Of a stretch of 64,000 nt of DNA, positions 39,714 through 56,521 are shown one piece after another. Source of the DNA: Affinundibacterium flavidum (lineage in GTDB: Bacteria; Pseudomonadota; Gammaproteobacteria; Burkholderiales; Burkholderiaceae_D). The stretch lies in contig NZ_JACOGA010000005.1 of NCBI RefSeq assembly GCF_014284175.1, forward strand, positions 1 through 64,000, written 5' to 3'. The notes beneath the pieces are model-generated. The model was given only the letters and a program-made list of their open reading frames with translations. It was not told the origin of the DNA and did not search any database. A program made the translations under genes and the position numbers. The first letter of the stretch is position 1. Every line of letters starts with the position of its first letter.

Positions 39714-40160
39714 TCAAACTTCTGGCGTGGCAATCACCTTGCCAGCCACATGCGTCGTCAGCACAATTGCCGTCGAAGTCGAGCCAAAGGCATTGAGTTG
39801 ATTAATAATACGCTGCAGATGTTCGACGTCCGTCGCCAGTACCTTCATCACTGCGCCATCTTCGCCAGTTACGGTATAGCAATCGATAATCTCAGGGCAA
39901 TTCGCGACGAATTGTGCGTACGGCCGGCCTTGTTGGGTAGAGACGCGTATCATTGCTGTAATGTCATAGCCGAGAGCCTTGGGATTAATGTCGGCACGAT
40001 AACCACGGATGATATTGCTGCTTTCAAGGCGCTTGATACGTTCGGAGACTGCGGGTTGACTCAGGTGCACCTGACGGCCAATTTCAGCATGCGACATGCG
40101 AGCATCTTCTTGCAATAATTGCAGGATTTTTTTGTCAAATTGGTCGATTTTTTGATTCAT
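39714..40160 (-). CDS. Lrp/AsnC-family transcriptional regulator
   Basis: 148-aa regulator: N-terminal winged helix (DKKILQLLQEDARMSHAEIG, LSQPAVSERIKRLES) and a C-terminal RAM ligand-binding domain (CYTVTGEDGAVMKVLATD). The frame is open to 40265; ATG 40160 follows GAGG and gives the usual start MNQKIDQFDKKIL. Divergent from lysA with ~105 bp between the starts, so it may control lysine synthesis or itself in response to an amino acid. Confidence 0.92.
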   Translation of the reverse strand: MNQKIDQFDKKILQLLQEDARMSHAEIGRQVHLSQPAVSERIKRLESSNIIRGYRADINPKALGYDITAMIRVSTQQGRPYAQFVANCPEIIDCYTVTGEDGAVMKVLATDVEHLQRIINQLNAFGSTSTAIVLTTHVAGKVIATPEV

Positions 40161-40265
40161 AAGCAAAACCTCGTGATTTTTAGTGAATCCACGGTGAAAG
40201 TGCGATTTCACCTTTGAACACCCATTTAGTTTTGGCATTGTACGCGTTACAGTAGTGCATCTCAA

Positions 40266-41540: not shown

Positions 41541-41788
41541 TAAGTAGCCAATTAGCGCTGATCGAATCAAACAAATTTGTATGCGTTTCACTCTCTAGTT
41601 CTCTACTTCAAGCTATGCCAATCAAAGAATTAGATGCAGGCTATCTGGCTAGAGCACCAATCATTTTGTTTGACGCTTTTGAATGACACATCAATTGTTT
41701 CACGACTTATCTTGCGACTGTTGCAATATGAAAGACGAAGTCAAGCGGAAATTGGATTTGCTACTTAGATCCCGAAGAGCAGAGAATA

Positions 41789-42643
41789 CTAACTCTCATT
41801 CATTCGCTTGGTCATCTGTTCAATTTTTATTGGTGAAGTAAGCACATCATGCAATTGATCATGCTTTACTTTCCCTAAGTGAAATTGCTTTATCCATTCG
41901 GAACAAATTTTCACTTTTGCACAATTTTTGGAAGCCAATATTGCTGGTATAAGCGAAACACCTTTTGCGTCGACACCGTTTTTTTCCAGTTTCAGCATTA
42001 CGTCGGCCTGATATTCTTCTAAGTCTTGAACAGTAGATCTCCACACCCCTAATTGTGGTAGTTCTCGCTCCACACCACCTCTATCAAATTCACTTACCGC
42101 CATTAAACTTGCACGTGCACTTTTATGACCTATTAGTGCCTTTTTTAGAAGTCGGTCTATTTTCTCCAATTCATTTAAGAGGGTAATATCTTCGTCTGCA
42201 TAATCAGAAATGGAGCTCCTCTCGAATAGCACTTTTTCTTGATCGTACAAACAAAGGAAAACCAAATTTCCCGTTTCCCAAAGTTTTTTGGCTTCAGTAA
42301 CGGCTATATCAATATGGTACGTTTCTACTTTTGCTGTGCGTTCTACTTGCTTTTCATTAACGCAGGTGATGCGAATTCCTTCAAGCATTTCCAGACGTTT
42401 CTCCATAGCAATGTGTGTTCCCAACACGATATCATCACCATTGCCTTTACTGTTATCGCGCAGACCAAGGAAACTCTGACTCTCAAAAAAATGAGCACGA
42501 ACAGGTACTACATTCACACTATTATTTGAATCATCGTCGTCAGATGCCCCCATTTGGCTCATACGATTCTGTTCGCTCGCGCAATACGCATCATTATTTG
42601 GATTCATGCTATCGCTACGATCATCATTTGAACTTCGACTCAT
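41789..42643 (-). CDS. Unrecognised acidic protein
   Basis: 284 aa, no recognised domain. The first ~45 residues are low-complexity and acidic (SNDDRSDSMNPNNDAY; ASDDDDSNNS), then a mixed alpha/beta region (~50-140) with VETYHIDIAVTEAKKLWETG, and a helical, charged C-terminal half. No signal peptide or membrane segment. A clear AAAGGA precedes the ATG. It lies 78 bp downstream of the HTH gene at 42722 on the same strand, probably as one unit. The local DNA is visibly AT-richer than the flanking core genes, which suggests acquired DNA. Confidence 0.7.
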   Translation of the reverse strand: MSRSSNDDRSDSMNPNNDAYCASEQNRMSQMGASDDDDSNNSVNVVPVRAHFFESQSFLGLRDNSKGNGDDIVLGTHIAMEKRLEMLEGIRITCVNEKQVERTAKVETYHIDIAVTEAKKLWETGNLVFLCLYDQEKVLFERSSISDYADEDITLLNELEKIDRLLKKALIGHKSARASLMAVSEFDRGGVERELPQLGVWRSTVQDLEEYQADVMLKLEKNGVDAKGVSLIPAILASKNCAKVKICSEWIKQFHLGKVKHDQLHDVLTSPIKIEQMTKRMNES

Positions 42644-42721
42644 ATATGTATTCCTTTACAGAAAAATTAAACTTTCAAAATTGCCGCTAATCACGCAAAC
42701 ACGTGATGCTGATCGGATACT

Positions 42722-43993
42722 TTAGGCTAACTCACTCTCGGTTCGTCGAAGCTCAATAAATTGTTTGCGTCTAACTTCCGCCCAAGGCGCTTGATTAAAT
42801 TGATTGCTTTCATCGATCCAGCCCAAATCAATTTCAAATTTCTTTAATTTACGCCTTACCGCAAAAAAACTGCCTTTAGCTTTTTCAGTTAAAGTCAATT
42901 CAACACCGCGCATTGCCAAGAAGAAGCCATATTCTTCCGTATTTAAACCATCACAAATATCTTGAAGATATTCCTCAATCTCATGGTTAAAACTAAAATT
43001 GCGCTTCTCCACACACTCCCAATCCTCATCATTTCTTCCCACACCTCTATTTTCAAAAACAAGAATTTGAATTATTGGTGCACTCCCTACTGCGGGTGCG
43101 ACTTTACCGTAAATGTCAACGGAATCAGCATATTGCCAAGCGAATTTCTCCAGATCTCTCGACACATATTCATCCTCCCAAACGTCGGCGTGAATCCATG
43201 ACATTCCATCTTCGCGGGAGACTCTACATGCGACACATTCAAATACATTTTTGCGCGTATTATTGCTAAATTCACCTGTCAGACGATGATGAAATTTACT
43301 TTTCTCCAAGGTGAACTTCAAACTCCCTTGGCAATGGCTTGATAAATATTTTCGGCTATCTTCCAAAAAATAATTGATACTCGCTGAACCAAGTAAGAGT
43401 TTTCCAAGTACATGTTCCAAATGAAAGAAATCAGAATAAATCCACCAATAACATGCGTCGCTTCCATTCATCGGAAAGTCGTCTCTTTCCAATAAAAGGC
43501 AAGCGTAAATTTTACGAATTTCCTTTCCATTGCCATGAAAAGAAAATTTTTCAAAATCACGCAACAATTCAGACGCCAAACTCCTATATGCCCAATCTTT
43601 GTCTGCCATATCCCATGACATCAATTCACCAAGCTCAAACTTTAGCAATGTAGAAATTTCCTCTAACAGAAAGGTATTCTCACTTAACTTCAAATAGCGA
43701 ATTCGATTCCTTAGTTTCTTTCCCAGTGCTTCACCATACTCAAAATAATCACGATTCAAAAGATGTTCAATCGTCACCCCTAAGACTTTAGCAAGCGACT
43801 TAGCTCTAACTAAACTTACCTTGCCAGTTTCTTCAATTTTTTGATACATACGCAATCGTGATTCCTCGTTTGCCTTACTTAAAATAGAAAAAGCCTGGTC
43901 AGCCAAAGCCTTTTGCGACATCGGCACTGCTTTACGACACACTTGAAGACGCTCATTATCGATTTGAATTAATTTCGCCACGTTTTGCACCAT
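42722..43993 (-). CDS. Unrecognised protein with N-terminal HTH domain
   Basis: 423 aa. Residues ~10-80 look like a Cro/C1-type helix-turn-helix (VPMSQKALADQAFSILSKA; GKVSLVRAKSLAKVLGVTIE), with an unusual insertion between the helices. The remaining ~340 residues match nothing I know; they contain several Trp/Tyr-rich segments (SDACYWWIYSDFFHLEHVLG). There is no transmembrane helix. Together with the downstream acidic protein it forms an isolated two-gene unit next to a decayed nucleotidyltransferase gene. It could be a regulator with a ligand domain or part of a defence or stress module; the function is open. No strong ribosome-binding site before the ATG. Confidence 0.7.
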   Translation of the reverse strand: MVQNVAKLIQIDNERLQVCRKAVPMSQKALADQAFSILSKANEESRLRMYQKIEETGKVSLVRAKSLAKVLGVTIEHLLNRDYFEYGEALGKKLRNRIRYLKLSENTFLLEEISTLLKFELGELMSWDMADKDWAYRSLASELLRDFEKFSFHGNGKEIRKIYACLLLERDDFPMNGSDACYWWIYSDFFHLEHVLGKLLLGSASINYFLEDSRKYLSSHCQGSLKFTLEKSKFHHRLTGEFSNNTRKNVFECVACRVSREDGMSWIHADVWEDEYVSRDLEKFAWQYADSVDIYGKVAPAVGSAPIIQILVFENRGVGRNDEDWECVEKRNFSFNHEIEEYLQDICDGLNTEEYGFFLAMRGVELTLTEKAKGSFFAVRRKLKKFEIDLGWIDESNQFNQAPWAEVRRKQFIELRRTESELA

Positions 43994-44155
43994 GTTTTAA
44001 CTGAATAATTCATATTAGCACTGGTAAAAAATCGTAACAATGTGACTTTTACGACTTTTTGAGATTTATTTTATATACCTACGTAAACACAATACAAAGA
44101 TGCTCAAACGATGCTTAAAATAGCACTCAGCTTTAAAAATCCAAGTTAATCCAGC

Positions 44156-44193
44156 TTTTTTGCCACATAATATTAAAAAATATGTGGCAAAAA
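44156..44193. repeat. AT-rich inverted repeat near the HTH gene
   Basis: TTTTTGCCACATA and TATGTGGCAAAAA face each other over ~12 bp, and a third TGCCACACA-like half-site follows at ~44214. It lies between the divergent HTH gene (starts 43993) and the nucleotidyltransferase remnant (starts 44260). It may be an operator of the HTH protein, or a bidirectional terminator. Confidence 0.5.
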
Positions 44194-44259
44194 TTTACTG
44201 CACAAACCACCATTGCCACACATTTTTTAAATTTATGTGATAAGCAAGGAGTTGACAGA

Positions 44260-45250
44260 GTGAAACAGCTCTACTCGACCCTTCAAGCAACCCACCACAC
44301 CGAATTCGACAATCTCAAAAACGCAGGAAGTCATTCATATTGGAACACCGGGTCGCATTGAAGATCGATTGCGAGGATCTGATACATTTTTTATCATCGT
44401 TTTTACGATGCAAAGAGCAAGCCATCGGAGAAATAATTTGGTGACCCGTCAGGGAATCCTGAAGCGGACATCCTTCTTAGGAATGCACTCGATAATATCC
44501 AAAGTGCAGAAATGGTTGTACGAAGCGTCAGGGAACTCCGTAAACTTGGTTTTGCGGTGATTGAAGACAAGGCAGGTGCCACATTAGCGGCATTACATAA
44601 CCACAAACTTTTTGCCGGTGGACTCACATTAATTGGAAGTCATGCCTACGGCGTAATTCTTAATCACCTTAGTGTGAAGGCAGCAAGTTACCTAACAGAG
44701 GACATTGATGCAATGCGATAAACTCATTGAGCCTTGCTACAGCGCCGCAAATGAGTCTGCTCGAAATCCTGCAGCAGCAGGGCTGCCATTTATCAAAGCG
44801 AAGACAGGCTTAAAGCCTGGAGGAAAATCAGAAACCTACAAGCTGCCAGGCAAAGAAAAACTCTTAGTTGACCTCTTAGTGAACGGATCTGATACAGGGA
44901 CACCCGTTTTGATCCCTGAATTGAACGCCTATGCCCAATCGGTACTTCATCTGGATTATTTAGTCGACGAAAAAATGGAATCCGTCATTTTTAGTAAAAC
45001 CTACACAGTGCCCGTCTACACGCCCAATCCTGCTCGCTTTGCCATTCACAAATTATTTTCAGCTCTTTCGCGTATCAATCAATCTGCAAAAAGTGATAAA
45101 GACATCCTGCAAGCCGCTACTGTGATATGTGCGACGGAGGATAAATATCCTGGAGATATTGAAGATGCCTTGCTCGCTTCCTCATGCGGGAAAGACAATC
45201 ATGTTGCAAGGCATGAGGCGAGCCTTGCCGTTCATAAAATCACATTCTGA
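44260..45250 (+). pseudogene. Decayed GSU2403-type nucleotidyltransferase gene
   Basis: Starts at GTG 44260 behind AAGGAG, as VKQLYSTLQATHHTEFDNL, but meets in-frame stops near 44359 and in the following ~100 bp. The same frame resumes (RSVRELRKLGFAVIEDK ... LTLIGSHAYGVILNHLSV ... LTEDID) until 44721. The rest of the protein continues in another frame from ~44705 (KLLVDLLVNGS; NPARFAIHKLFSALSRI; SDKDILQAATVI). The GSHAYG / TEDID / VDLL / FAIHKL pattern is that of the GSU2403-family nucleotidyltransferase fold proteins. At least two stops and one frameshift make it a remnant, unless sequencing errors are involved. Confidence 0.7.
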
Positions 45251-45327
45251 AGAATATGCCAGCAATTTGATGACATTGATTAAAGAAATAAACCTAGGGG
45301 CACTGATATACCATTTTTTCTCCCTGA

Positions 45328-46377
45328 TTAAGGTTTGATCTTGAGCCAATTGTTATAGTCATGAATCGCAAATGCATATTTGGCCGTTTTGGTCGCACTT
45401 GTATTGTCAATTTTGGTTCTCAAGCCATTTAAAACATTCAACATGGCAGCTTCGCCTTCTTCATAAAAAGTGATGTAAGTAGGATCGGTTCCTTTGACTG
45501 GAGAAACATCGGCGCTGACGATGGTTTTTTTGCTGTATCTGACACCAAGAATCAGGTCTTTAGATGCGACTCCCCACATGCCACCACCTTGGCCTTCCAG
45601 AGAATCGCGATACGTCATCACGGCTAATGCCGCAATCTTAGTATTGGCATACAACCACTCGGCAAGATTATTCGGTAAGGGAAGCGAGGGGTTATACGCA
45701 TACGGCAGGATAGCCTTGTCGATATAGGTTTCTCCATCGAACCAGAAGGGAATCGCAAAGCTTAAGGGTAAATCACCTGGCAATCGGGCAGGAACACCAA
45801 TTCCAGATTTCGCATCTTCTACACGTTTTATCGCGTCATTAATGAAGCCCTGATAGGCTGCGATGGCTTTGTCATGATGTACTTCACTTCTCCACAAAGC
45901 GGAGGTGTACGGTTCTACATCCAGATGAATGCCTGCTAACCGTTGGTTCATGTTTGCTTTGGTCTGGTAAGCGAAAACCCAATCAAAAAAAGCTTTTTTA
46001 TTACTTGCACCATCGGGAGTAATCCAATTATCCGCACCATCGAGGGCATGTACTTTGATAGGATAAGAACGATTCTCGACGATCACTTGTGCAGCGCCTA
46101 AACTAGCTACCAGATATTGATATTTTTCAACTCGAATATCGCGGTTAATTTGAAGATAAATTTCAGTAACGCGTTTATTTTTGCAAAAAGCAATCAAATT
46201 ATTAATCTGAACTTTATCTGCGGTCGTAATGGTTTTTGAGGTAGAAATAAGTGCGCTGGTATCCCAAAGCCAAGTCGTTTTTCCGCTATCAACGGCACTA
46301 GCATTGAAGGAAAAAAAACATGATGCAGCAAACGCGATTGCTAAAGAAATTTTTCGTAAATGCATGATAGGAGTCAT
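45328..46377 (-). CDS. Secreted protein of unknown function, TIM-barrel-like
   Basis: 349 aa with a clear signal peptide (hydrophobic core AIAFAASCFFSFNASA, cleavage near ASA-VD). The mature part begins TTWLWDTSALIS and contains EIYLQINRDI, a conserved-looking GIHLDVEPYTSALW segment, and KIAALAVMTYRDS. Alternating strands with acidic residues at strand ends, as in the DVEP motif, suggest a glycoside-hydrolase-like (beta/alpha)8 barrel, but I cannot name a family. ATG 46365 (MHLRKIS) is an alternative start. It lies next to the peptide-export genes but has its own spacing, so a link is uncertain. Confidence 0.75.
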   Translation of the reverse strand: MTPIMHLRKISLAIAFAASCFFSFNASAVDSGKTTWLWDTSALISTSKTITTADKVQINNLIAFCKNKRVTEIYLQINRDIRVEKYQYLVASLGAAQVIVENRSYPIKVHALDGADNWITPDGASNKKAFFDWVFAYQTKANMNQRLAGIHLDVEPYTSALWRSEVHHDKAIAAYQGFINDAIKRVEDAKSGIGVPARLPGDLPLSFAIPFWFDGETYIDKAILPYAYNPSLPLPNNLAEWLYANTKIAALAVMTYRDSLEGQGGGMWGVASKDLILGVRYSKKTIVSADVSPVKGTDPTYITFYEEGEAAMLNVLNGLRTKIDNTSATKTAKYAFAIHDYNNWLKIKP

Positions 46378-46698
46378 CCATAGAGGTTAAAGAACAATCT
46401 CTAAATAGTAATACTTTTTTTCATGCACCAAGCAAACTGTTTTGTAAAGAAGTGTAAGGATTAAAAATACTTATTTTTAATAATAAAAAATATTAGATTT
46501 ATATTTTTGGCGTTTTAGCAGTTTAGTCGCCGCGAAAAAAGTGATTCTCATGCTGAGAACAACTAACGAGCAAAGCTTGAAGTCAGTTCCAACATACACA
46601 ATAAAATCAGAAACAGCGCGACAACAATGTGCTACTTTTTGCGATTACTTTGCTTCAAAAATCCGCCAAGATTTACCATTGTCTAATTGTTATAGCGA
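46378..46698. other. AT-rich intergenic stretch
   Basis: About 320 bp between the secreted protein gene and the end of the HlyD-type gene. It should hold the promoter of the secreted protein. No terminator hairpin or credible small gene was seen; the + strand frame from 46541 overlaps the HlyD gene and has no recognisable features. I looked for a second double-glycine peptide here and did not find one. Confidence 0.5.
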
Positions 46699-48000
46699 TC
46701 AAACACGGTTAACAATACTTCTAAATTTTCCTAATAGCCTGCTCAATAAACTATGGTTATCGGTAATCACTTCTCCCAAACCTGTCATTTCATTTCTATA
46801 GTTAAGCTCTTTGTTATAGGAGGTCTTTAAGCCATTAGGAAGCTCGACATCAATCGCATAACTATTATTATTAATTACCAAGGAAATATTTTTTACTCGT
46901 CCTTTTAAAATTCCATATTCTGCGTATGGATAATTTTCCAATTTAATATTGACCAGTTGCCCAAGCTTTAACTTACCAGAATTTTGTATCGGTAAAATAA
47001 GGCGTGCGATACAGTTGGGTTTATCCAGTGGTACGACGCTAAATGCCTCTTCACCTGCCTTGATATTTTGATTCGCTATCCAGAAATTAAAAAACGAAAC
47101 CTTACCGTCAATGGGAGAAATTAATAAAAAATCCTGTCGCCATGTCTCGATGGATGACTGCAAATTTTTCATCGACTGTTCAAGCTCAATCTTATATTTA
47201 CTGGATTGCTCCATATGTAGCATGTTTAATTGCAGTTTATTTTTCTCAATATTGTTGATCGTAATTCTTGTGCTCGCATGGGTAATTTTCAAACTTTCAA
47301 AAGCACTTTGTGCACGAAGAAAGTCCTTCTTTTTATTTTCAAAATCACGTGCTGAAATAAGTCCATCTCTATATAGACCCTGATCTCTGAAATAATCCTT
47401 TTCTGTCAATGCGAGCTCATCACTATACAATTTCACTTGTTGTTCATATTTCGCTAGCAATTGATTTTGGCTTGCAACCTCTCGCTCTAACAGTACAATT
47501 TCCTTATGTTGAGGATTCATATCTACAAATAATTGATAGTCTTTATAGGCCTTCAAAAATTGTAAATAGTCTGCTGTGAGGTCTCCCATTTTAAGCGCAT
47601 CGTTAAAACTAAAATTGGGCAGAGAATTGCCTGGCCTCATCTTGGATACTAGTACTTGTATGTCCTCACTTACTTTCAATACATTGTGATAATCGGCCGT
47701 ATTTTCCAAGATCGCTAAAACACTACCTTTGCGAACCTCTTGATTATCTTTCACCAATAAACTCGCCAACTTGCCGCTAGTACGCGCAACCACCGTAACA
47801 GAAGGATTTAAGGTTGTGACTGTGGCTTTGGCAACTAATATGTCTGGGTAACTAATAAAATAGGTCAGTGCGACACCAAGTGCCATCATAGAAAAAATAA
47901 TCAGCATTCCCCAATTGAATAACCAACTTGGTGATGACTCTAAAATTTCTGTCACTTCGTCGGTACGAAGTTCAATTTCCCTGTCGAGATGATCAGTCAT
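46699..48000 (-). CDS. HlyD-family adaptor of a peptide exporter
   Basis: 433-aa membrane-fusion protein: cytoplasmic N-terminus of ~30 residues, one helix (WGMLIIFSMMALGVALTYFI), lipoyl half-motifs (SGKLASLLVKDNQEVRKGSV; LISPIDGKVSFFNFW), a long coiled-coil hairpin (~95-265) and a C-terminal beta domain (ILKGRVKNISLVINNNSYAI). It connects the C39-type ABC exporter to an outer-membrane channel. Its ATG overlaps the exporter stop (TAATG), so the two are translationally coupled. The last ~25 residues are unusual for HlyD and may be a family trait of bacteriocin adaptors. Confidence 0.9.
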   Translation of the reverse strand: MTDHLDREIELRTDEVTEILESSPSWLFNWGMLIIFSMMALGVALTYFISYPDILVAKATVTTLNPSVTVVARTSGKLASLLVKDNQEVRKGSVLAILENTADYHNVLKVSEDIQVLVSKMRPGNSLPNFSFNDALKMGDLTADYLQFLKAYKDYQLFVDMNPQHKEIVLLEREVASQNQLLAKYEQQVKLYSDELALTEKDYFRDQGLYRDGLISARDFENKKKDFLRAQSAFESLKITHASTRITINNIEKNKLQLNMLHMEQSSKYKIELEQSMKNLQSSIETWRQDFLLISPIDGKVSFFNFWIANQNIKAGEEAFSVVPLDKPNCIARLILPIQNSGKLKLGQLVNIKLENYPYAEYGILKGRVKNISLVINNNSYAIDVELPNGLKTSYNKELNYRNEMTGLGEVITDNHSLLSRLLGKFRSIVNRV

Positions 48001-50192
48001 TAATTTCCTAACTCCAGCTGATTCTTAACTAAGCTATAGTAGGCTCCTTTTGCAGCCGTCAGATCCGCATGGTTTCCAATTTCAACAATATGACCTTTAT
48101 CTAAAACGATAATCTGATCCGCATTTTTGACTGTGCTTAGGCGATGCGCAACCACCACCACTGTTTTACCTTTACAAAACTCATCCAAATTATTCATGAT
48201 GGTTTTTTCATTGTTCGCATCCAATGCACTTGTTGCTTCATCAAAAAACAAATAGTCAGGATTTTTATAAACTGCTCTGGCAATCAATATCCTTTGCTTC
48301 TGACCAGTACTGAGGCCAATTCCCTCTGCACCTATTTTCGTATTGAAACCCAAGGGCAAACCATCGATATACTCTTTGATATTCGCGGTAATAGCGGCAT
48401 GTTTAAGTTTATGTTTGTCGATAGACTCATCACCAATCGCAATATTATTGGCAATCGTATCGGAAAAAATATAGCCTTCCTGCATCACCACACCACATTT
48501 TGAGCGCCACAAACTAGATGAGAGTTGCTTTAAATTATTCTCGTTAAGCGTAATCTCTCCTTGGCTTGGTTCATAAAACTTTAATAAAATTTTGAGCAAG
48601 CTTGTCTTGCCACTTCCACTTGCGCCAACAATGGCGGTGATTTTATTGGCGGGAATAGTGAAGTTAAGATTATTCAGCACCAGTTCTTCAGAGACCCCTG
48701 GATAGCGAAAATGAACCCCTTTAATATGAAGCGCCGCATTTGCTTCTAGTTCGAGAATAAGTTCTTTGTGAATTGACTCTTCGTCCTCCCGACCGTGAAT
48801 GTCACCCAACCTTTGCAGGCTCAATTTCGCATCTTGCCAGTGTTGAATAAATTGGACGAGTTCCATAATCGGTGCGTTCAGTTGCCCCGTGATATAACTT
48901 ACTGACAGCATCATTCCCAAAGTAATATTTCCATCCAACACCAGCTTCGCAGTCAGAAAGGTAATCGTAATATTCTTAAGTTCATTAATAACTGCTGAGC
49001 CAGAATTTTGCCATTGCGTCAGCGTCAGGCCTTGCAAATTGATTTTATATAATTTGACTTGTAAACTTTCCCATTGCCAGCGCTTTTGTCGCTCGGCATT
49101 ATGTAACTTGATTTCTTGCATGCCATTAACGATCTCTATCACTTTGCTTTGATTCAAGCTACTTTGGCTAAACCGTTTAAAATCAAGATCAGCTCTATAC
49201 TTCAAGAAAAAAATAACCCATCCAATATAAGCAAAACTTCCTAATGTGAAAACCAGGAAGATAGACAGGTCATACCAAGCCAATACCAAACTAAAGGTGA
49301 TCAGGTTGAACATTGAGAATAATACGCTCAATGAACTGCTTGTTAGAAAACTCTCAATACGGTAATGATCACCAATACGCTGCATAATGTCGCCAGTCAT
49401 CTTGGTATCAAAAAACGCAATGGGTAGTTTCATCAATTTGACAAAAAAATCTGATACCAAAGCAATATTAATGCGGCTACTCATATGCAGCAAAATCCAA
49501 CCACGAAGGATTTCTATTGATGTTTTTCCCAAAAAAACCATCAATTGAGCAAATAGGATCAGGTAGATGAAATTCAAATCGTGCGTCTGAATACCAATAT
49601 CCACGATACTCTGCGTCAAGAATGGAAACAGCAATTGCAAAAGACTGCCAGCAAGTAATCCAATCATCAACTGGACAACCAGTCTGCGATGTTGAACTAG
49701 GTATTTTGAAAGAAACAGAAATCCATTTTTATCATTTTTTTGACGATCCGCACCCGCTAAATTTTCATCAAAAAATTCTGGCGTGGTTTCAAAAAATAAA
49801 ACCACACCTTCATCTATGCCATCGCCAACCCAGCCTTTGATGAACTCCGCTTTTGAGTATTTGAGCAGGCCATGGCTAGGATCCGCCACATAAACAAAAT
49901 TCTTACTAATTTTATAGATGACGACGAAATGATTTTGGTTCCAATGCGCGATACAAGGAAGGGGCGCATCATTAGCAAGCTTGTCAAACGCTAATTTGAC
50001 ACCTAAAGTCCGAAAGCCTATTTTTTCTGCAGCATCGCTTAAACCTAATAAGCTAGCGCCTTCGCGCGTCGTTTGCGTCGCTTGTCTCAAATCGTGCAAT
50101 GAATAGCTTTTGCCAAAATGCTTCGCAATCATACGAAGACAAGTGGCGCCACAATCCATCTGATCTGGTTGTTTATAAAAAGTGAATTTCAT
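48000..50192 (-). CDS. Peptidase-containing ABC exporter (C39 domain)
   Basis: 730 aa. Residues ~1-140 form a C39 cysteine peptidase: catalytic Cys14 in DQMDCGATCLRMIAKHFGK, His in HWNQNHFVVIY, Asp in VADPSHG. Then six membrane helices (~170-440) and an ATPase (~480-730) with Walker A GASGSGKTS, signature LSTGQKQRILIARAV, Walker B YLFFDEATSALD and AHRLSTV. It cuts double-glycine leaders and exports the core peptide. The likely substrate is the 53-aa precursor at 52142-52303. No Shine-Dalgarno sequence is visible before ATG 50192. Followed directly by its HlyD-type adaptor. Confidence 0.95.
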   Translation of the reverse strand: MKFTFYKQPDQMDCGATCLRMIAKHFGKSYSLHDLRQATQTTREGASLLGLSDAAEKIGFRTLGVKLAFDKLANDAPLPCIAHWNQNHFVVIYKISKNFVYVADPSHGLLKYSKAEFIKGWVGDGIDEGVVLFFETTPEFFDENLAGADRQKNDKNGFLFLSKYLVQHRRLVVQLMIGLLAGSLLQLLFPFLTQSIVDIGIQTHDLNFIYLILFAQLMVFLGKTSIEILRGWILLHMSSRINIALVSDFFVKLMKLPIAFFDTKMTGDIMQRIGDHYRIESFLTSSSLSVLFSMFNLITFSLVLAWYDLSIFLVFTLGSFAYIGWVIFFLKYRADLDFKRFSQSSLNQSKVIEIVNGMQEIKLHNAERQKRWQWESLQVKLYKINLQGLTLTQWQNSGSAVINELKNITITFLTAKLVLDGNITLGMMLSVSYITGQLNAPIMELVQFIQHWQDAKLSLQRLGDIHGREDEESIHKELILELEANAALHIKGVHFRYPGVSEELVLNNLNFTIPANKITAIVGASGSGKTSLLKILLKFYEPSQGEITLNENNLKQLSSSLWRSKCGVVMQEGYIFSDTIANNIAIGDESIDKHKLKHAAITANIKEYIDGLPLGFNTKIGAEGIGLSTGQKQRILIARAVYKNPDYLFFDEATSALDANNEKTIMNNLDEFCKGKTVVVVAHRLSTVKNADQIIVLDKGHIVEIGNHADLTAAKGAYYSLVKNQLELGN

Positions 50193-50362
50193 CTATTTTT
50201 TATTATTATGTGAGCCTTTATCTTGCAATAGCGAAGACAATAAATTGGTATCTATTTGTACTAAAATCTACGAATGAACAACAGTCCTCTAAAAAGAAAA
50301 CAGCCAAGTTGGAATACACATTGGACTATTCTAGGTAACGGGGAAAATATCAGGAGCACACA

Positions 50363-50389
50363 AACGCACAGACTTATCACCTGTGCGTT
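50363..50389 (-). terminator. Weak hairpin after the VKOR-fusion gene
   Basis: 9-bp stem AACGCACAG/CTGTGCGTT with a 9-nt loop, 12 nt beyond the stop codon at 50401; on the minus strand only a short TT-rich tail follows. It suggests that the VKOR gene and the exporter genes downstream form separate or partly separate transcripts. Confidence 0.45.
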
Positions 50390-50400
50390 TTCAAACTTGA

Positions 50401-51984
50401 TTAACGACTTGATTGTGCCTTCAAGAGCAAAGGAATTAATTCACGCAAGTCTTCCACTCTGTATAGGTCGGGATAATGATATCCATCTATAAGAATCGCT
50501 GGCGTCCGTCTGATATTTGCATATATCGCCCATTCTTCATGCGGGACTAAGCTTGAATAAGTGTCCACCTCACTATCACCTGGATACTGCTTTGCAAACT
50601 GATCTAGCTTGGGATTTGCAAACCAAGCGTTTAACACTTTCCTGCAATATTTACGATCTGCCAAATGCGGAATCAGATTCCGTAATATTTGTTGAACTAC
50701 CTTGGTTCTATCATCAGCAGCATCCGTCGCGCTCAATACAAACCGTACTTGCAAACCAAAATCATAAACATCCAACAATTCATCCAGTTGTTGATGCGCA
50801 TGTGCGCACGGTCCGCAGAACGGATTAGATATCACAGTTATTTGTAATGCTGCATCCTTATTTCCAACTTGGATTTCGTTTTCAAAAGGACTGACATCCA
50901 AGGGTGCAGATGTTCTTAACAGAGAGGTAAATATGTCTTTATTGAAGTAAAGTTTGTAAGCTTGATTTTTTTCAGCCGACTCTTTTAGCTGTTTCTCTTT
51001 GATCGTACGATATGAATTCCATATCAACACCGTGCTTAAGCATGTCAACGCAAAAAATACTACTTCATCGAACTTTGGCCACACCAATCCAGAGGTTTGA
51101 ATGCCAAATGAGAGTACAAGAAATTGACAAAAAACGCTTCCTAAAATTGCCAGACATATTGGGCACCACTCCTTCTGAATGCGCCACTGCAAATATACTG
51201 ACACCGGAATGACGAGTAAGGAAAATACACTGGCAACAAATAAGATGCTAGCTAGGCCCAGCATTTGTGCAGCATTCATTATTATCAGAATGATGAATGA
51301 AACCAAAAACCAAGACATCGCCAGGTCACTAAATCCCAGGCCTAAAATTTTCTTCGTTTTTTCAGTGCCTGAGTTTCTGCAAGTAGTTAAACTTCCACAA
51401 AACTGTTCTGCCACTTTATTACTAATGCCTAGTTCATTACAGGCACCAGACCATGCAAACATCAAACCGAAACCACTCACCAAGAATGCAAGAAATAAGA
51501 TCCAGTTAAAATTTAGTAAGAAATAAGTTGTCGCAAGAGCTGAGAAAGTGAGCAGGCTATAGTTTCTGAGCTGGGTATTCTTGATCTTATTCGCTAGCTG
51601 TTCTTCACCCGTAGAGTGTTGCCAACCATCAGGCGCTTCTACAGCTAATACAATACCATCCCAAATTTCCTCAAAATTTTTCCGTACTTTCCTTAATTTT
51701 TTGAGACTATCAATTAAAACAAATTCCCCGCCATTCGTTTTAACATGCGCCAAAAAAGGGAATGGGATTTCATCCAAAAGATGTTTTTCAATTTTGACGA
51801 CTACACTCTCTAATCCCAAGTCATTAAGTACTTCACTCACGCACCATGCCGATGGATAGTCTGGGTGACGCATTAATTTTTCTGCGACGTAATCGCCGGC
51901 AATATCGATTTCCTTACTCGACAATAAGCGTTGTACGCTCTGATACAAAGATGCATCCAAATTTTTCCCCTTCAGAACTTCCAA
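50401..51984 (-). CDS. VKOR-thioredoxin fusion with N-terminal C39-like domain
   Basis: 527 aa. Residues ~5-110 resemble a C39-type domain (MRHPDYPSAWCVSEVLNDLG, PFPFLAHVKTNGGEFVLID) but lack the catalytic DCG cysteine of a working peptidase, so it is probably a binding module. Residues ~135-310 carry four to five membrane helices with the VKOR cysteines (GACNEL; QFCGSLTTC; active pair WCPICL). Residues ~365-527 are a DsbA/thioredoxin-like domain with FCGPCAHAHQ. VKOR proteins regenerate disulfide donors, so it probably oxidises the cysteine-rich peptide encoded by the divergent gene 157 bp away. Start is TTG 51984, behind GGAAAC. Confidence 0.85.
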   Translation of the reverse strand: MEVLKGKNLDASLYQSVQRLLSSKEIDIAGDYVAEKLMRHPDYPSAWCVSEVLNDLGLESVVVKIEKHLLDEIPFPFLAHVKTNGGEFVLIDSLKKLRKVRKNFEEIWDGIVLAVEAPDGWQHSTGEEQLANKIKNTQLRNYSLLTFSALATTYFLLNFNWILFLAFLVSGFGLMFAWSGACNELGISNKVAEQFCGSLTTCRNSGTEKTKKILGLGFSDLAMSWFLVSFIILIIMNAAQMLGLASILFVASVFSLLVIPVSVYLQWRIQKEWCPICLAILGSVFCQFLVLSFGIQTSGLVWPKFDEVVFFALTCLSTVLIWNSYRTIKEKQLKESAEKNQAYKLYFNKDIFTSLLRTSAPLDVSPFENEIQVGNKDAALQITVISNPFCGPCAHAHQQLDELLDVYDFGLQVRFVLSATDAADDRTKVVQQILRNLIPHLADRKYCRKVLNAWFANPKLDQFAKQYPGDSEVDTYSSLVPHEEWAIYANIRRTPAILIDGYHYPDLYRVEDLRELIPLLLKAQSSR

Positions 51985-52070
51985 AATGTTTCCAATATTG
52001 ATGTAGCATAAACATACACATTAGAGAAACAATAAGTAGTAATTTAACTAAATTTATTTTATCATTAAAT

Positions 52071-52106
52071 TGAAAATTGACGCGCAAGCGACTTAATCAA
52101 TTTTCA
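52071..52106. promoter_or_regulatory. Inverted repeat between VKOR gene and peptide gene
   Basis: Perfect 10-bp arms TGAAAATTGA and TCAATTTTCA separated by 16 bp, 36-71 bp before the peptide start codon. A possible -35-like TTGAAA overlaps its left arm. Good candidate operator controlling the precursor, and perhaps the divergent VKOR gene. Confidence 0.5.
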
Positions 52107-52141
52107 CTTCATGTTCACTAATTCAAAAAGGAAAAGATGTC

Positions 52142-52303
52142 ATGCAAAAATTAAAAGATCTGGGACAAACGCTCACCAAACAACAGCAGCAACAAATATT
52201 GGGTGGGATTGCTAAGAATTGCAATAGCTGTTCAGTTCCCGGCTACTGCGATCCTGATCTGCCAATGTGTCCTAGTTGCGGTGGAAGAACTTGCTATAAC
52301 TAA
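52142..52303 (+). CDS. Double-glycine-leader cysteine-rich peptide precursor
   Basis: 53-aa small gene. Residues 1-22 form a leader (MQKLKDLGQTLTKQQQQQ, then ILGG) with the pattern hydrophobic-x-x-LG-x-x-L-x-x-x-Q...GG recognised by C39 peptidase exporters. Cleavage after Gly21-Gly22 would release a 31-residue core beginning IAKNC, with six cysteines (27, 30, 36, 43, 46, 51) in two CxxC-containing clusters, plus Gly/Pro/Asp and a Tyr-Asn end. AAGGAA lies ~9 nt upstream, and an inverted repeat is further upstream. Neighbours include a C39 exporter, a HlyD adaptor and a VKOR disulfide machine on the other strand. The product could be a bacteriocin, signal or metal-binding peptide; activity is not readable. 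Confidence 0.8.
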   Translation: MQKLKDLGQTLTKQQQQQILGGIAKNCNSCSVPGYCDPDLPMCPSCGGRTCYN

Positions 52304-52429
52304 GCTTAGCAATAGACTGATAAATAAACGCTAATCAAAAAAACAGCCGATTTGATAGTAGCTCCGATACAGACTTCTGAGTATCGCGTCTGAGTGGCTT
52401 GATAGCTTGCATCGATTAGCATTTTCACT

Positions 52430-52461
52430 CCGCCGGACATGCAGTTTCTCGCATCCGGCGG
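52430..52461. terminator. GC-rich hairpin after the peptide gene
   Basis: 8-bp stem CCGCCGGA/TCCGGCGG with additional complementary bases near the loop, ~125 bp downstream of the peptide gene. No T-run follows, so it may be a Rho-assisted terminator or a dispersed palindrome. The rest of 52304-52578 shows nothing else. Confidence 0.35.
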
Positions 52462-52578
52462 TTGAAATCAGCGATCTGAATCACACTGCATCGATACTTA
52501 CCCAAAATTCATATTGCGCATCACAATCATTGTCCATAGATAAGACTCGATAAATGCATGCCATCCCCTTTTAACAGC

Positions 52579-53331
52579 CTAAATGCTCACCTCAGCTAGG
52601 CTGGCAGAACGACTACCTACTTGCGGCAAGTTGTCCTGAGCCCGATATGTGAACACCATAGAAAACTTAGTCTGCCCAGTCTGATTACAACCAGCCGCAT
52701 GAAATAAATTGCTTGAAAATAGCAAGACGTCGCCTTGCTGCAAAGGTACGGCTTGGGCTTGCGCCAGCAGGTCTTGATTGCGTTGCAGGTCGGCGCGTAG
52801 AAATTGCGCGCTATCTAATTGCTCTGCATCGATCTGCCATTGATGTGATCCCGGCAAAACTAGCAGGCAGCCATTTTCAATTCTTTCGTCGCGCAATGCC
52901 AGCCAAACGCTGATCAGTTCTGGCTTTTGAAAATTCCAATAACGGCTATCTCGGTGCCAACCAGTCAAACTAGAAAATCGCGCTTGTTTGGTCATGATGC
53001 AGTTATGGTGAACTTGCGACATCTTCGCGCCTTCACCCAATAGCTGCTTCAACACGACGCTTAAGTTAGTTTGCGTCGCCCAATCTGCCAACAACGGGGC
53101 ACGTGCATAGGCTTGCAATAAACGTCTTGCAGTTTGCCCTCCCTCTGCATCACGAGACACAGGTGCACCCGGATAACGGGTATCGGCTTCGTACTCGATT
53201 GGCAGCACAACTTGATCTAACTGTTGCTGGGCGAGGTCAAGCACTTGTTGGCAATATTCGGGCGAACTAAAAGCTGGCAACACCAAGTAGCCTTGCTGTT
53301 GGAATTGCGCGATTTGAGTGGGGCTTAGCAT
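52579..53331 (-). CDS. Phytanoyl-CoA dioxygenase (PhyH) family protein
   Basis: 250-aa Fe(II)/2-oxoglutarate-dependent oxygenase. Iron ligands are visible as HxD in LTGWHRDSRYWNFQKP and His in SSNLFHAAGCNQTG. A 2-oxoglutarate-binding Arg is probably in FTYRAQ. N-terminal Q..GYLVLP.F typical of the family. The reaction substrate is unknown; bacterial members hydroxylate a wide range of small molecules. ATG 53331 is the first start of the frame. Confidence 0.85.
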   Translation of the reverse strand: MLSPTQIAQFQQQGYLVLPAFSSPEYCQQVLDLAQQQLDQVVLPIEYEADTRYPGAPVSRDAEGGQTARRLLQAYARAPLLADWATQTNLSVVLKQLLGEGAKMSQVHHNCIMTKQARFSSLTGWHRDSRYWNFQKPELISVWLALRDERIENGCLLVLPGSHQWQIDAEQLDSAQFLRADLQRNQDLLAQAQAVPLQQGDVLLFSSNLFHAAGCNQTGQTKFSMVFTYRAQDNLPQVGSRSASLAEVSI

Positions 53332-53499
53332 GGACGTAAAAGATCAAACTAAAAACAGCATTATAGTAGTAAGTTGTATCCACATCGTGCTGTGTTCGCG
53401 TCTTCATTGTCGAAGCACTCTAAAGAAAAATTAATAGAAAGTACGCAAGCAGACAGATACCCGTTAGAATTTCTTATCTTTGTTTTTGATCGCCAGAAC

Positions 53500-54144
53500 A
53501 TGCAGAATCGCCGCCAGTTTTTTAAGAAATCGCTGTTATTGACTGCCAGTGGATTATTGATCGGCAGCCGCCCACTATCAGGATTGGCACAAGACGGTGA
53601 CAACAAAGCGAGCAAATTGACCCCGCCGCCAGATCTATTCGATGCACAGGTGTTGGATGTTGATTTTTGGCTGAAACCCCGCACGCTCGATTTGATCAGA
53701 CCAGCCAGCGGTGAACGCATTAAATTATTGTATTGGAAGGACGGCGATATGCTCGATTCGGCCTACCAACAATTTTGCCATTTGCTGCGTGATGTGAATG
53801 GAAAAAAAAGCGCACCTATTGACCCCAAATTATTAGAAACCTTGTGGGCGACGCAAGCCTTCATTGCACGCTTCGGCATGACCAAGCCACTCGAAGTATT
53901 GTCTGGCTATCGCACCCCAGAATCAAATCAACGATTGCGTGAAGAAGGGATTCCCGCTGCTCGTAAGTCTTTGCATTTAGAAGGAAGAGCTGCGGACATT
54001 CGAATTGGCGACTTGCATGAAGAAGTTTTAGGCGAATTGATCCAAAGCTTTAAGCAAGGTGGCGTGGGATTTTATTTCCGCGCCAGTAGCAAAGGTGGCT
54101 GGATACATACGGATACAGGTTTGCAAAGAACTTGGACAGGCTGA
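53500..54144 (+). CDS. Tat-exported DUF882/YcbK-like peptidase M15 family protein
   Basis: 214 aa. N-terminal signal with a twin-arginine-like start (NRRQFFKKSLLLTASGLLIG), cleavage near GLAQ. The mature domain has the DUF882/YcbK layout: SGYRTPESNQRLREEG, the metal-binding HLEGRAADIRI and WIHTDTG. Zinc-dependent LD- or DD-peptidase-type fold, presumably acting on peptidoglycan in the periplasm. The frame is open from 53374; ATG 53500 starts the signal peptide and is preferred. Confidence 0.85.
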   Translation: MQNRRQFFKKSLLLTASGLLIGSRPLSGLAQDGDNKASKLTPPPDLFDAQVLDVDFWLKPRTLDLIRPASGERIKLLYWKDGDMLDSAYQQFCHLLRDVNGKKSAPIDPKLLETLWATQAFIARFGMTKPLEVLSGYRTPESNQRLREEGIPAARKSLHLEGRAADIRIGDLHEEVLGELIQSFKQGGVGFYFRASSKGGWIHTDTGLQRTWTG

Positions 54145-54223
54145 CGCGGCTCAGCGTAGATTAATCCGAGGTAGTAAGAATTGCTTTGGAGTTGATATTA
54201 GTCAGACTAGCTTGACTGCTGCT

Positions 54224-54499
54224 CTATTTTTTCTTACGACTACGATCAGCGGATTCACGCAAGATGGTGAAGTTCCAATCGTGTTCATTAGTGACGCCAT
54301 TATGTATTGTCGTAATTCGAAATAATTCAGGCGTTGCTTTTAGTCTTTGACCAGTCGCTTCCAGTTTAAGAGCGAGGTCATTTCTATCATAGACGTCCAA
54401 TTCAACCAATGAACCTTCTATCGCCGCTGGCGACAATAGGGAGGCGATGGTTTTTGGTGTGAATTCCAACATATACACTGGCATCGCAAAGGCACCCAT
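54224..54499 (-). CDS. Small protein of unknown function
   Basis: 91 aa from ATG 54499 (GGAG 5 nt upstream); an in-frame ATG at 54523 would add 8 residues. Mixed, probably folded sequence (IEGSLVELDVYDRNDLALKL; ITTIHNGVTNEHDWNFTI) ending in a basic tail RSRKKK. No signal peptide or known domain. Convergent with the DUF882 gene. The codon pattern looks ordinary, but with no recognised relatives the call is tentative. Confidence 0.45.
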   Translation of the reverse strand: MGAFAMPVYMLEFTPKTIASLLSPAAIEGSLVELDVYDRNDLALKLEATGQRLKATPELFRITTIHNGVTNEHDWNFTILRESADRSRKKK

Positions 54500-54590
54500 G
54501 GCGGCTCCAAGTTTGTAGCACATAGAATCGAAGTGAATTCTTTGATTCTACTCGCGCAACTTCAATTAAGGAAATTTATTTCCACTTGGG

Positions 54591-54636
54591 AAAATAAAAT
54601 GGGCGACAAAACCACAGGGTTTTGTCGCCCATTTTT
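54591..54636 (-). terminator. Strong terminator after the DUF885 gene
   Basis: 13-bp perfect stem GGGCGACAAAACC/GGTTTTGTCGCCC (54601-54613 and 54618-54630) with a 4-nt loop. AT-rich tails on both sides (ATTTTATTTT on the minus strand, ATTTTTATAT on the plus strand) allow termination in both directions; the gene it serves is the DUF885 gene on the minus strand. Confidence 0.9.
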
Positions 54637-54688
54637 ATATAATTTCAATTAACTTACTTACAATTCGGTCTTTTCAAGGACTTTGCAA

Positions 54689-56521
54689 TTACTTCTTGGT
54701 GGCGACCCATGCTTTAATCCGGCTTTCCAATACATCTAGCGGCAACGCACCTGCACCTAGCACTTCATCATGAAACTCCTTCAGGCTGAAGCGAGCTCCT
54801 AATGTTTTGCTAGCGTAATCACGCAATTCCAAGATCTTCAACTGACCAATTTTGTAGCCTAATGCCTGACCCGGCCAGACGATGTAACGATCAGTTTCGC
54901 TCTGAATTTCAACTTCTTCTATACCAGAATGATTACGGAAGAAATCGACGACTTGTTGTCTATCCCATTTTTTATAGTGCAAGCCTGTGTCTACCACCAA
55001 GCGAATCGCGCGCAGCATTTCATCTTGCAAATGTCCATAGTAGCTGTAAGGATCTTTAAAGAATCCTAATTCACGCCCCAATCGTTCAGAATACAAAGCC
55101 CAGCCCTCTACATAGGCGTTATTGCCGCCTTGTTGACGGTAAGGAGGCAAGCCTTCCAGCTCTTGTGCAATCGCGATTTGCATGTGGTGTCCAGGCACGC
55201 CTTCATGCAGGGCTGTGGTTTCTATCGACAAAGTCATGCGATTCGCAAAGTCACCGGTATTGACCATCACGTGACCAGGACGTGACCCATCCGCTGCACC
55301 GGGATTATACGAAGCACCTGCTGCTTCTTTCTCGCGGAATTCTTCCACTGCCATGATCTTCACTTTGGCCTTAGGCAAACGACCGAATAACTCTGGAATC
55401 TTGGTGTACATTTGATCGGTGTACTTGTTGTACAAATCCAGAATTTCTTGACGTGACTTTGGATGCAAATCAGGATTTTTTTCCATCGAGGCATTGAAGG
55501 ATTTCAGATCTGCGAAACCTAATTTTTTTGCCACTTCTAACATCTGTCCTTCAATACGAGCAACTTCACGCAAACCTATCTGATGAATTTCTTCCGGCGT
55601 TTTGTTCGTTGTCGTTTGTGTTTTCACTTGCAACTTGTAACGCGCCGCTCCATCCGGCAAAGACCACAGACCTACGTCTTTACGACCGTACGGCGCGTAA
55701 TCGCTGCGTACAAAGTTGGAGAAATTTTGATAAGCAGGTAGCACTTTTGTTTTGATCGCATCCAATACTGCGCTTTTCAAACGCTGTTGATCAGCCTCAG
55801 AGATATCTGCAGGAAATTGTGCCACTGGTTTAGCGAAAGGCGAAGTCTCCATGCTCATCGCAATCAGGTCATCACACTGTCTGGCAATTTTTGGCAATAA
55901 AAATTGTGGTGGCATGATTTTGTTTTTCACACCCAACCGCATCTGAGCGATGGTTTGCTCAAACAACGCTGGCAGTTTGTGCAAACGCGCAATATAGTCT
56001 TCGTAATCTTTGACCGAAGTAAAACTCAGCATGGTGACTAATTCTGGCGTATCTAAATGCAAGCCGGAATTTTGCAGCACTGGCATTTGCCAAGACTTGA
56101 AGCGGGCACCTTCTAATTCTTCTTGTAATTGGCGCACCATTAAGTCTTTATTGAGTTTTTGTTGGACGTTAAATCCCTTAGTATCAATTGCTTGAAAGCG
56201 TTTCAAAAAATCACGCGTCATCTTGAGATTTTGATCAATCGCTGCTTGCGAAAAATCGCGCAACTGATCGTTATAGCGTTTGTCGCCCAACATAGAAGCA
56301 TATTCTGGACTTGTGCGTAGACCATACTCCCATTGCTCAGCTAGTAACTTCTCTAAGGCTTGCAGACGCGCTGCCAAAGTCGCATCTTGACGATCCGCCT
56401 TAGCAACGACGACCGCAGGTGTACTTGTTTCTGCTTGCGCCGTCACAGCGAATACCGGAGCGCTTAAAATGCCGATACTGATCAATAATCCATGCAAATT
56501 GTTAGTCGCAAATTTCTTCAT
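54689..56521 (-). CDS. DUF885-family secreted metallopeptidase-like protein
   Basis: 610-aa protein with signal peptide (~1-30; APVFAVTAQAETS). The DUF885 domain follows, with the zinc-type motif TTALHEGVPGHHMQIAIAQE (HExxxGHH) and the downstream EGWALYSERLGRELGF, where a further Glu may be a metal ligand. Family members are periplasmic or lipoprotein peptidase-like enzymes of unknown substrate. The frame is open to 56641, but ATG 56521 has a clear AGGGGAA site in front and gives the signal peptide MKKFATNN; the upstream part is a tandem repeat. Confidence 0.88.
   Translation of the reverse strand: MKKFATNNLHGLLISIGILSAPVFAVTAQAETSTPAVVVAKADRQDATLAARLQALEKLLAEQWEYGLRTSPEYASMLGDKRYNDQLRDFSQAAIDQNLKMTRDFLKRFQAIDTKGFNVQQKLNKDLMVRQLQEELEGARFKSWQMPVLQNSGLHLDTPELVTMLSFTSVKDYEDYIARLHKLPALFEQTIAQMRLGVKNKIMPPQFLLPKIARQCDDLIAMSMETSPFAKPVAQFPADISEADQQRLKSAVLDAIKTKVLPAYQNFSNFVRSDYAPYGRKDVGLWSLPDGAARYKLQVKTQTTTNKTPEEIHQIGLREVARIEGQMLEVAKKLGFADLKSFNASMEKNPDLHPKSRQEILDLYNKYTDQMYTKIPELFGRLPKAKVKIMAVEEFREKEAAGASYNPGAADGSRPGHVMVNTGDFANRMTLSIETTALHEGVPGHHMQIAIAQELEGLPPYRQQGGNNAYVEGWALYSERLGRELGFFKDPYSYYGHLQDEMLRAIRLVVDTGLHYKKWDRQQVVDFFRNHSGIEEVEIQSETDRYIVWPGQALGYKIGQLKILELRDYASKTLGARFSLKEFHDEVLGAGALPLDVLESRIKAWVATKK

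Follow-up and report, generated by a model that had tools for sequence, protein, structure and literature searches.

Bacteroidetocins, which belong to the class IIf bacteriocins (Coyne et al., 2019; PMC6671954), appear by analogy to be the closest characterised counterpart of the system described here. This system comprises a six-cysteine precursor peptide gene at positions 52142-52303 and three neighbouring genes, encoding a peptidase-containing ABC exporter (PCAT), a HlyD-type periplasmic adaptor and a VKOR-thioredoxin fusion protein. They lie in a stretch of 64,000 nucleotides from Affinundibacterium flavidum, a member of the Pseudomonadota; this whole stretch is called the window below. 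Excerpts of the bacteroidetocin article report that activity is attenuated on deletion of the gene for a five-transmembrane protein, a thiol oxidoreductase or the peptide, that four genes including the PCAT gene are enough in E. coli, and that there is no obvious immunity gene (PMC6671954). Judging from its title, a later paper identifies BamA as the target of bacteroidetocins (PMC8546649). The co-occurrence of PCATs and double-glycine (Gly-Gly) precursors in Bacteroidales is described in a further article, in the text of which VKOR was looked for and not found (PMC10352776). In the open-access literature, with subscription papers and preprints outside the search, no relevant link between VKOR and bacteriocins was apparent from titles, and nothing was found on VKOR together with C39 peptidases or on a VKOR-thioredoxin fusion in Bacteroidetes. 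Among the titles listed for Undibacterium and bacteriocins, none was relevant.

The four genes of the window probably form a Bacteroidota-type cassette for an exported disulfide peptide, laterally acquired by a Pseudomonadota host, the product being bacteriocin-like or a signal. In this cassette, the peptide would probably be cut, exported and disulfide-bonded by the products of the three neighbouring genes. Three known parts, a C39 exporter, a VKOR-thioredoxin oxidase and a Gly-Gly leader, would thereby be joined in one recurring system. A first-pass annotation, made from the nucleotide letters, had linked peptide, exporter and oxidase by position; to this, the results below add a domain of C39 fold at the start of the VKOR protein, a likely origin in Bacteroidota and the site of insertion.

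The precursor peptide and its distant relatives

The precursor gene (52142..52303, + strand) starts with ATG and encodes 53 residues, as listed among the open reading frames (ORFs) and recovered by a hidden Markov model (HMM). The 22-residue leader MQKLKDLGQTLTKQQQQQILGG (52142..52207) ends in LTKQQQQQILGG, and cleavage is predicted after Gly21-Gly22 from the leader matrix score. It is followed by the 31-residue core IAKNCNSCSVPGYCDPDLPMCPSCGGRTCYN (52208..52300), whose six cysteines are separated by gaps of 2-5-6-2-4. Frame, leader and core are exactly those of the first-pass annotation. The calculated monoisotopic mass of the core is 3267.304 Da when reduced and 3261.257 Da with three disulfides. 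An AGGA motif, spotted by eye, lies 9 nt 5' of the ATG.

Six cysteines within 31 residues are found in 7 of the 536 short ORFs of the window, the peptide ORF included, so that this feature is insufficient alone. A leader matrix was derived from 91 peptides of other VKOR-fusion loci; its preferences are Leu at position -12, Ser or Thr at -11, Met and then Gln at -7, Val or Ile at -4, and the Gly-Gly pair. With this matrix, a score of 25.9 bits is obtained for the window leader, which ranks first among 113 Gly-Gly sites in window ORFs (runner-up, 10.5 bits). None of the 1450 Gly-Gly sites of long ORFs at VKOR-fusion loci reaches this score, which corresponds to the lower quartile of the leave-one-out scores of the other peptides. 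It should be kept in mind that the leader pattern was partly modelled on the window leader and was also used to choose the 91 peptides, so that both the leave-one-out scores and the identities among leaders come out too favourably. An HMM built from 56 distant VKOR-locus peptides, the window peptide being excluded, retrieved this peptide with an E value of 7.6e-7 among 1005 window ORFs, the next one being at 0.37. On these two tests, a chance ORF was rejected. As judged from such similarities, the window peptide, above all its leader, matches the peptides of distant VKOR-fusion loci.

In Pfam and PADLOC, no family matches the window peptide, and NCBIfam gives a single chance-level match (E 0.27), to the C-terminal part of the model for the anaerobic ribonucleotide reductase NrdD. 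The leader models TIGR04149 and NF047798 leave it unmatched up to E 10, a search in which the HMMER filters drop most weak matches. In plasmids and phages, the matches obtained by tblastn of the peptide were limited to short pieces, none of them better than E 2. A match in viral contigs (L004) covers residues 1-28 only, within a 153-residue ORF devoid of a Cys-rich core, and was judged to be due to chance. No second peptide was found in the host genome up to E 10 with a profile that included the window peptide, and Rfam detected nothing over 40000-55000.

The loci used for comparison were retrieved through the oxidase, so that peptides occurring without it lie outside the survey. A tblastn search of plasmids with the fusion protein gave 8 records, all from Bacteroidota and 21-27% identical; a five-row alignment scan of a species-genome collection, of which the best 80 of 158 matches were kept, added 78 further loci, for a total of 86. 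By record title nearly all are from Bacteroidota, the exceptions being two contigs of metagenome-assembled genomes (MAGs; L069, L073). Searching the short ORFs of the 86 loci for Gly-Gly leaders yielded 118 matches, of which 91, in 52 loci, have at least four core cysteines; false rows, such as L090:18123-18425, may be among them. The same search on reversed DNA gave 3 matches, one of them with four cysteines. The cysteine number is even in 86 of the 91 peptides (six in 62, eight in 14, four in 8, ten in 2) and odd in 5; if only the first peptide of each locus is counted, it is even in 49 of 52. With six core cysteines, an even number and at least four, and a distance of 157 bp to a C39-like-VKOR-thioredoxin fusion, within the few kb that define the set, the window peptide resembles its members. 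At 39 of the 86 loci, a peptide starts at most 1 kb downstream of the oxidase gene on the same strand. An ABC match more than 40% identical to the window exporter and beginning in the C39 domain is present at 62 of the 86 loci and at 43 of the 52 that bear peptides. The association of peptide, exporter and oxidase, first proposed from position, is thus a recurring one.

At each of the 27 multi-peptide loci, the leaders resemble one another more closely than the cores do (mean identity, 68% vs 35%), and this holds for all 56 within-locus pairs; the contrast is inflated by the use of one common pattern to select the leaders. It is as expected of diversifying weapons or signals and fits fast-changing products. 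Cysteine spacing is also variable, with 58 different patterns among the 62 six-cysteine cores. The search by spacing suggested in the first-pass annotation did return a nearest core, from Emticicia (L006:9703; 3-5-7-2-4 vs 2-5-6-2-4 in the window), but the likeness is weak, since 65 of 5000 random spacings are equally close to some family member. TlpA-like genes occur at 44 of the 86 loci and directly follow 34 of the 91 peptides; such neighbours suggest a further connection with thiol chemistry. By tblastn, TlpA was found at 30 loci, DUF6734 at 7, LytTR at 7 and TolC at 3, and four neighbour proteins of the window gave no match at any of the 86.

Divergent cores within single genomes are more natural for weapons than for a pheromone-like signal. 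It may nevertheless be imagined that the same export and folding route delivers a secreted signal instead of a killer, an idea to which we give a small, though real, chance. An immunity gene is unrecognised in the window, the LytTR-type regulator of 7 loci stands beside a histidine kinase on Emticicia plasmids, and the Gly-Gly peptides of PCATs include signals, according to an excerpt of one article (PMC7018657). However, no kinase or receptor was recognised beside the window cluster, and bacteroidetocins kill, yet they too come without an obvious immunity gene in the excerpts quoted above. Hence, a small bacteriocin is taken as the most likely product and a signal as a less likely one.

Several other features of these loci may be mentioned. 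Loci L018, L006 and L041 carry several Gly-Gly peptides each, with similar leaders and dissimilar cores, and in L006 TlpA-like genes alternate with peptide-sized genes. The same cassette occurs on plasmids of Emticicia, Hymenobacter and Spirosoma (L005, L006, L009, L010). Its neighbours there include recombinase or transposase genes (L009, L010), a KwaA gene (L005) and a histidine kinase-LytTR pair (L005, L006). Four loci, three from Aquimarina and one from a Bacteroidia MAG (L068, L077, L082, L087), combine the VKOR fusion with an exporter that is more distant (30-31%); their short Gly-Gly peptides have two or no cysteines. A 57-row alignment, made of the window peptide and 56 of the 91 others after redundant, odd-length or arbitrary rows were dropped, was compared with the NCBIfam leader families: TIGR04149 matches 23 rows, NF047798 matches 15 and NF047792 matches 4. 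A radical-SAM peptide was considered because of the first of these families and was rejected, as no such enzyme is among the eight window proteins scanned. The window gives no support for a lanthipeptide either; of the other loci, L011 has an annotated LanC-like gene, and a gene family present in 8 loci is possibly LanC-like.

Exporter, oxidase and a possible route to the mature peptide

The three neighbouring genes lie on the opposite strand, and domain searches bear out their first assignment. The HlyD-type adaptor (46699..48000, - strand) has 433 residues (HlyD_3, E 1.2e-10). The exporter (48000..50192, - strand; 730 residues) combines Peptidase_C39 (E 1.8e-38) with ABC_membrane and ABC_tran. 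Cys14, His88 and Asp104, its presumed catalytic triad, show no variation across the 25 C39 domains of an alignment for which 24 of the first 30 listed were taken. In PADLOC, the 18 matches of the exporter look like general ATPase matches, and HlyD, the oxidase and a nearby nucleotidyltransferase have none.

The fusion protein (50401..51984, - strand) has 527 residues and a TTG start. Comparison of its profile with the PDB distinguishes three parts, related to the C39 domain of PCAT1 (7e-12), to VKOR (4nv6, 3kp9) and to DsbA-like proteins. In Pfam, Thioredoxin_4 is above its cut-off, and VKOR (E 0.00035) and C39 are below theirs. The membrane VKOR part (residues 126-345, with approximate boundaries; 50950..51609) is helical in the model and has the hallmark of the family, a loop cysteine pair (196, 202) and a CxxC motif (274, 277). 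The thioredoxin/DsbA-like domain (50434..50880; Thioredoxin_4, E 1e-6, residues 369-517) carries CGPC at 390-393 and a Thr-Pro pair at 494-495, and resembles DsbA and ScsC structures. All 82 full-length homologues retain the six redox cysteines, including the four of the VKOR part; the short homologues of L012, L059 and L063, and one locus that lacks an ORF, lie outside this count. The two oxidase alignments hold 65 and 56 of the 75 oxidases offered, redundant, odd-length or arbitrary rows having been dropped. The full-length model has a mean predicted local distance difference test score (pLDDT) of 87.8, and its top Foldseek matches fall on the thioredoxin part.

The N-terminal domain (residues 1-125; 51610..51984) deserves particular attention. 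Its AlphaFold2 model (pLDDT 82) matches PCAT1 with a Z score of 12.5 over 110 residues (root-mean-square deviation 2.5) and the leader-bound C39 protease 6mpz with a Z score of 12.4; 3zua, a structure titled 'A C39-like domain', is also among the matches. As modelled, the domain has a C39 fold. In an hhalign comparison with the C39 domains of the exporters (98.6%), Cys14 and His88 of the exporter face Ser and Glu, and Asp104 faces a gap, so that the catalytic residues are missing. Non-catalytic C39-like domains are found on HlyB-type exporters. DsbB is encoded by the host genome itself, in which the fusion is the sole VKOR match; the oxidase therefore looks dedicated.

The following route may be envisaged. 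The 53-residue precursor would be made in the cytosol. The C39 domain of the exporter would bind the Gly-Gly leader and cut it off. The 31-residue core would leave through the exporter, HlyD and a presumed host TolC, and the VKOR-thioredoxin protein would join its six cysteines in three disulfides on the periplasmic side, where known VKORs act. The non-catalytic C39 domain of the oxidase would probably dock the leader or the exporter, thereby coupling export and oxidation. What the sequence shows is the peptide, its type of leader, the domains, the retained active-site residues of exporter and oxidase, the recurrence with the oxidase elsewhere and the foreign origin of the exporter; cleavage, export, disulfide formation, docking and killing are inferred. 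More tentatively, and with somewhat less than even confidence, it may be proposed that this domain defines a leader-guided oxidase, that a large, hitherto undescribed and hypervariable family of disulfide peptides of Bacteroidota undergoes export and oxidation as a single coupled process, and that the cassette is transferable as a whole to another phylum.

Several observations weigh against an exported disulfide peptide made in this way. No such peptide was found at 34 of the 86 loci, including 18 of the 58 that span at least 17 kb. The peptide gene of the window is divergent from the oxidase gene, an order seen for none of the 91 other peptides, and a sigma-70-type promoter scan of the 157-bp intergenic stretch (51985..52141), where both promoters are expected, gave no match. 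Neither a TlpA-like gene, among the eight window proteins scanned, nor an immunity candidate was recognised in the window. Should the conduit made of PCAT, HlyD and TolC be closed, an oxidase in the periplasm might never gain access to the core. Finally, the core is neutral, as compared with a median charge of -3 in the other family cores, and it has two CxxC motifs, which occur together in 0 of 62 six-cysteine family cores, as well as a CPxCG knuckle, found in 0 of 91.

This last feature, here CPSCGG, is a zinc-knuckle-like motif. Together with the two CxxC motifs, it raises the question of an exported metal-binding peptide, of the zinc-ribbon or metallothionein-like kind, with its thiols kept reduced; the sole NCBIfam match, to NrdD, is perhaps owed to the same knuckle. 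Such a function is improbable in our opinion, because the adjoining oxidase keeps every redox cysteine, and because the even cysteine counts throughout the family, in the absence of a fixed spacing, fit disulfides.

Insertion site and origin of the cluster

The peptide is present in one of 43 genomes of the genus, the window's own. The first-pass annotation had made its proposal dependent on homologues beside C39 and VKOR genes in relatives; near relatives lack them, whereas distant ones have them. The oxidase was found in one of 294 genomes of the family, one of 399 of the order and one of 398 of the phylum, again each time the window's own, these sets being samples rather than a census and the order and phylum scans scoring at most three candidates per genome. 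The 15 best matches of the window exporter are 54-61% identical to it and all lie at VKOR-fusion loci, and the PCATs of relatives (six from the genus, one from the order) reach only 28-29%. A tree of 51 of 62 loci, retained after a length filter, with these relatives as sole outgroup, separates the window exporter from the seven PCATs at 100/100. It places it beside those of Algoriphagus, Gilvibacter, Aureibacter and a Flavobacteriaceae bacterium, this placement being weak (86/47). By sequence, the exporter is of foreign origin. Since it groups with exporters from Bacteroidota, the cluster was likely acquired laterally from a source of this type. The set of oxidase, exporter, HlyD and peptide genes also occurs on L069, a contig assigned by binning to Beijerinckiaceae (Pseudomonadota); its exporter nests among those of Chitinophagaceae, so that L069 may represent a misbinning or else a second transfer.

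The site occupied by the cluster (41541..52578) is variable; it is flanked by a conserved decarboxylase-like gene on one side and a PhyH gene on the other. Each of these flanking genes is present in 40 of 42 genomes of the genus, and they share one contig in 34 other genomes. In the 15 of these 34 that were compared, the gap holds other genes or is near-empty (about 140 bp in G027 and about 160 bp in G023), and no ORF matching the four cluster genes was found in it. Across the genus the gap ranges from 0.14 to about 14 kb, and its gene content differs in many genomes. The GC content is 0.387 in the cluster and 0.465 in the window outside the insert. Consistent with the phylum of the host, the best of the 12 matches listed for its CcmF are Pseudomonadota plasmid records, at 53-56%.

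The same insert contains a nucleotidyltransferase gene (NTP_transf_8; 44182-45250, + strand) that seems broken over several frames. At the same site, genome G018 has a 350-residue ORF 92.5% identical to it over the matched part (L162:11888-12940), and G019 a 107-residue piece (L161:3471-3794). A 349-residue protein (45328-46377, - strand), with an apparent signal peptide as judged by eye, is without a match in Pfam, and none of the 86 loci holds a relative; it may be cargo of the same insert.

It could be argued that the peptide ORF, or the whole cluster, has been silent or decaying since its transfer. The broken nucleotidyltransferase, the occurrence of the cluster in a single one of the genomes sampled, the empty promoter scan and the lack of a TlpA partner among the scanned proteins would all agree with this. 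However, the four genes are all open, and active-site residues and leader are kept, and decay is given little credence here. A laterally acquired cassette of the Bacteroidota type, coding for an exported disulfide peptide, is preferred.

Significance and comparison with known systems

A recurring system of this kind, with a leader-binding-type domain on the oxidase, has, as far as the open-access literature searched is concerned, no description that we could find. It opens to experiment the question of how disulfide peptides are folded by Gram-negative bacteria in the course of type I export. It also provides a signature for mining Cys-rich peptides, and the cassette is shown to occur in a host from the Pseudomonadota. 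Should the products prove to be bacteriocins, they would represent a large untapped set with hypervariable cores.

As far as the excerpts describe them, bacteroidetocins and the window system are alike in having a Gly-Gly leader, cysteines thought to be paired and adjacent genes for a PCAT and a thiol oxidoreductase. Moreover, bacteroidetocins come from Bacteroidetes, the phylum where the window-type cassette is common. They are known killers, whereas the window peptide is a putative one. Their leaders have 15-16 residues instead of 22. By description, they have at least two cysteines, four in the type members, as compared with six in the window peptide, and their oxidation genes code for a separate five-transmembrane protein and thiol oxidoreductase where the window has a single fusion. 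HlyD is outside the bacteroidetocin four-gene set and is present in the window cluster.

Other systems share parts of this organization. TIGR04149, NF047798 (bacteriocin-like protein) and NF047792 describe the same kind of leader as the family rows, but none of them matches the window peptide; TIGR04149 is named for targets of radical-SAM enzymes, which the scanned window proteins lack. Class II microcins are Gly-Gly peptides of PCATs. With PCAT-exported Gly-Gly peptides such as those of PCAT1 and ComA, the window has in common a C39 exporter with Cys, His and Asp and a Gly-Gly leader, and its HlyD adaptor is as in Gram-negative type I export. It differs from PCAT peptides in general by the extra VKOR oxidase with its own C39-like domain and by a core without known relatives. 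Finally, the VKOR and thioredoxin parts and the redox cysteine pairs of the fusion are those of bacterial VKOR-thioredoxin proteins (3kp9, 4nv6), to which the window protein adds an N-terminal C39-like domain and a place within a peptide-export cluster.
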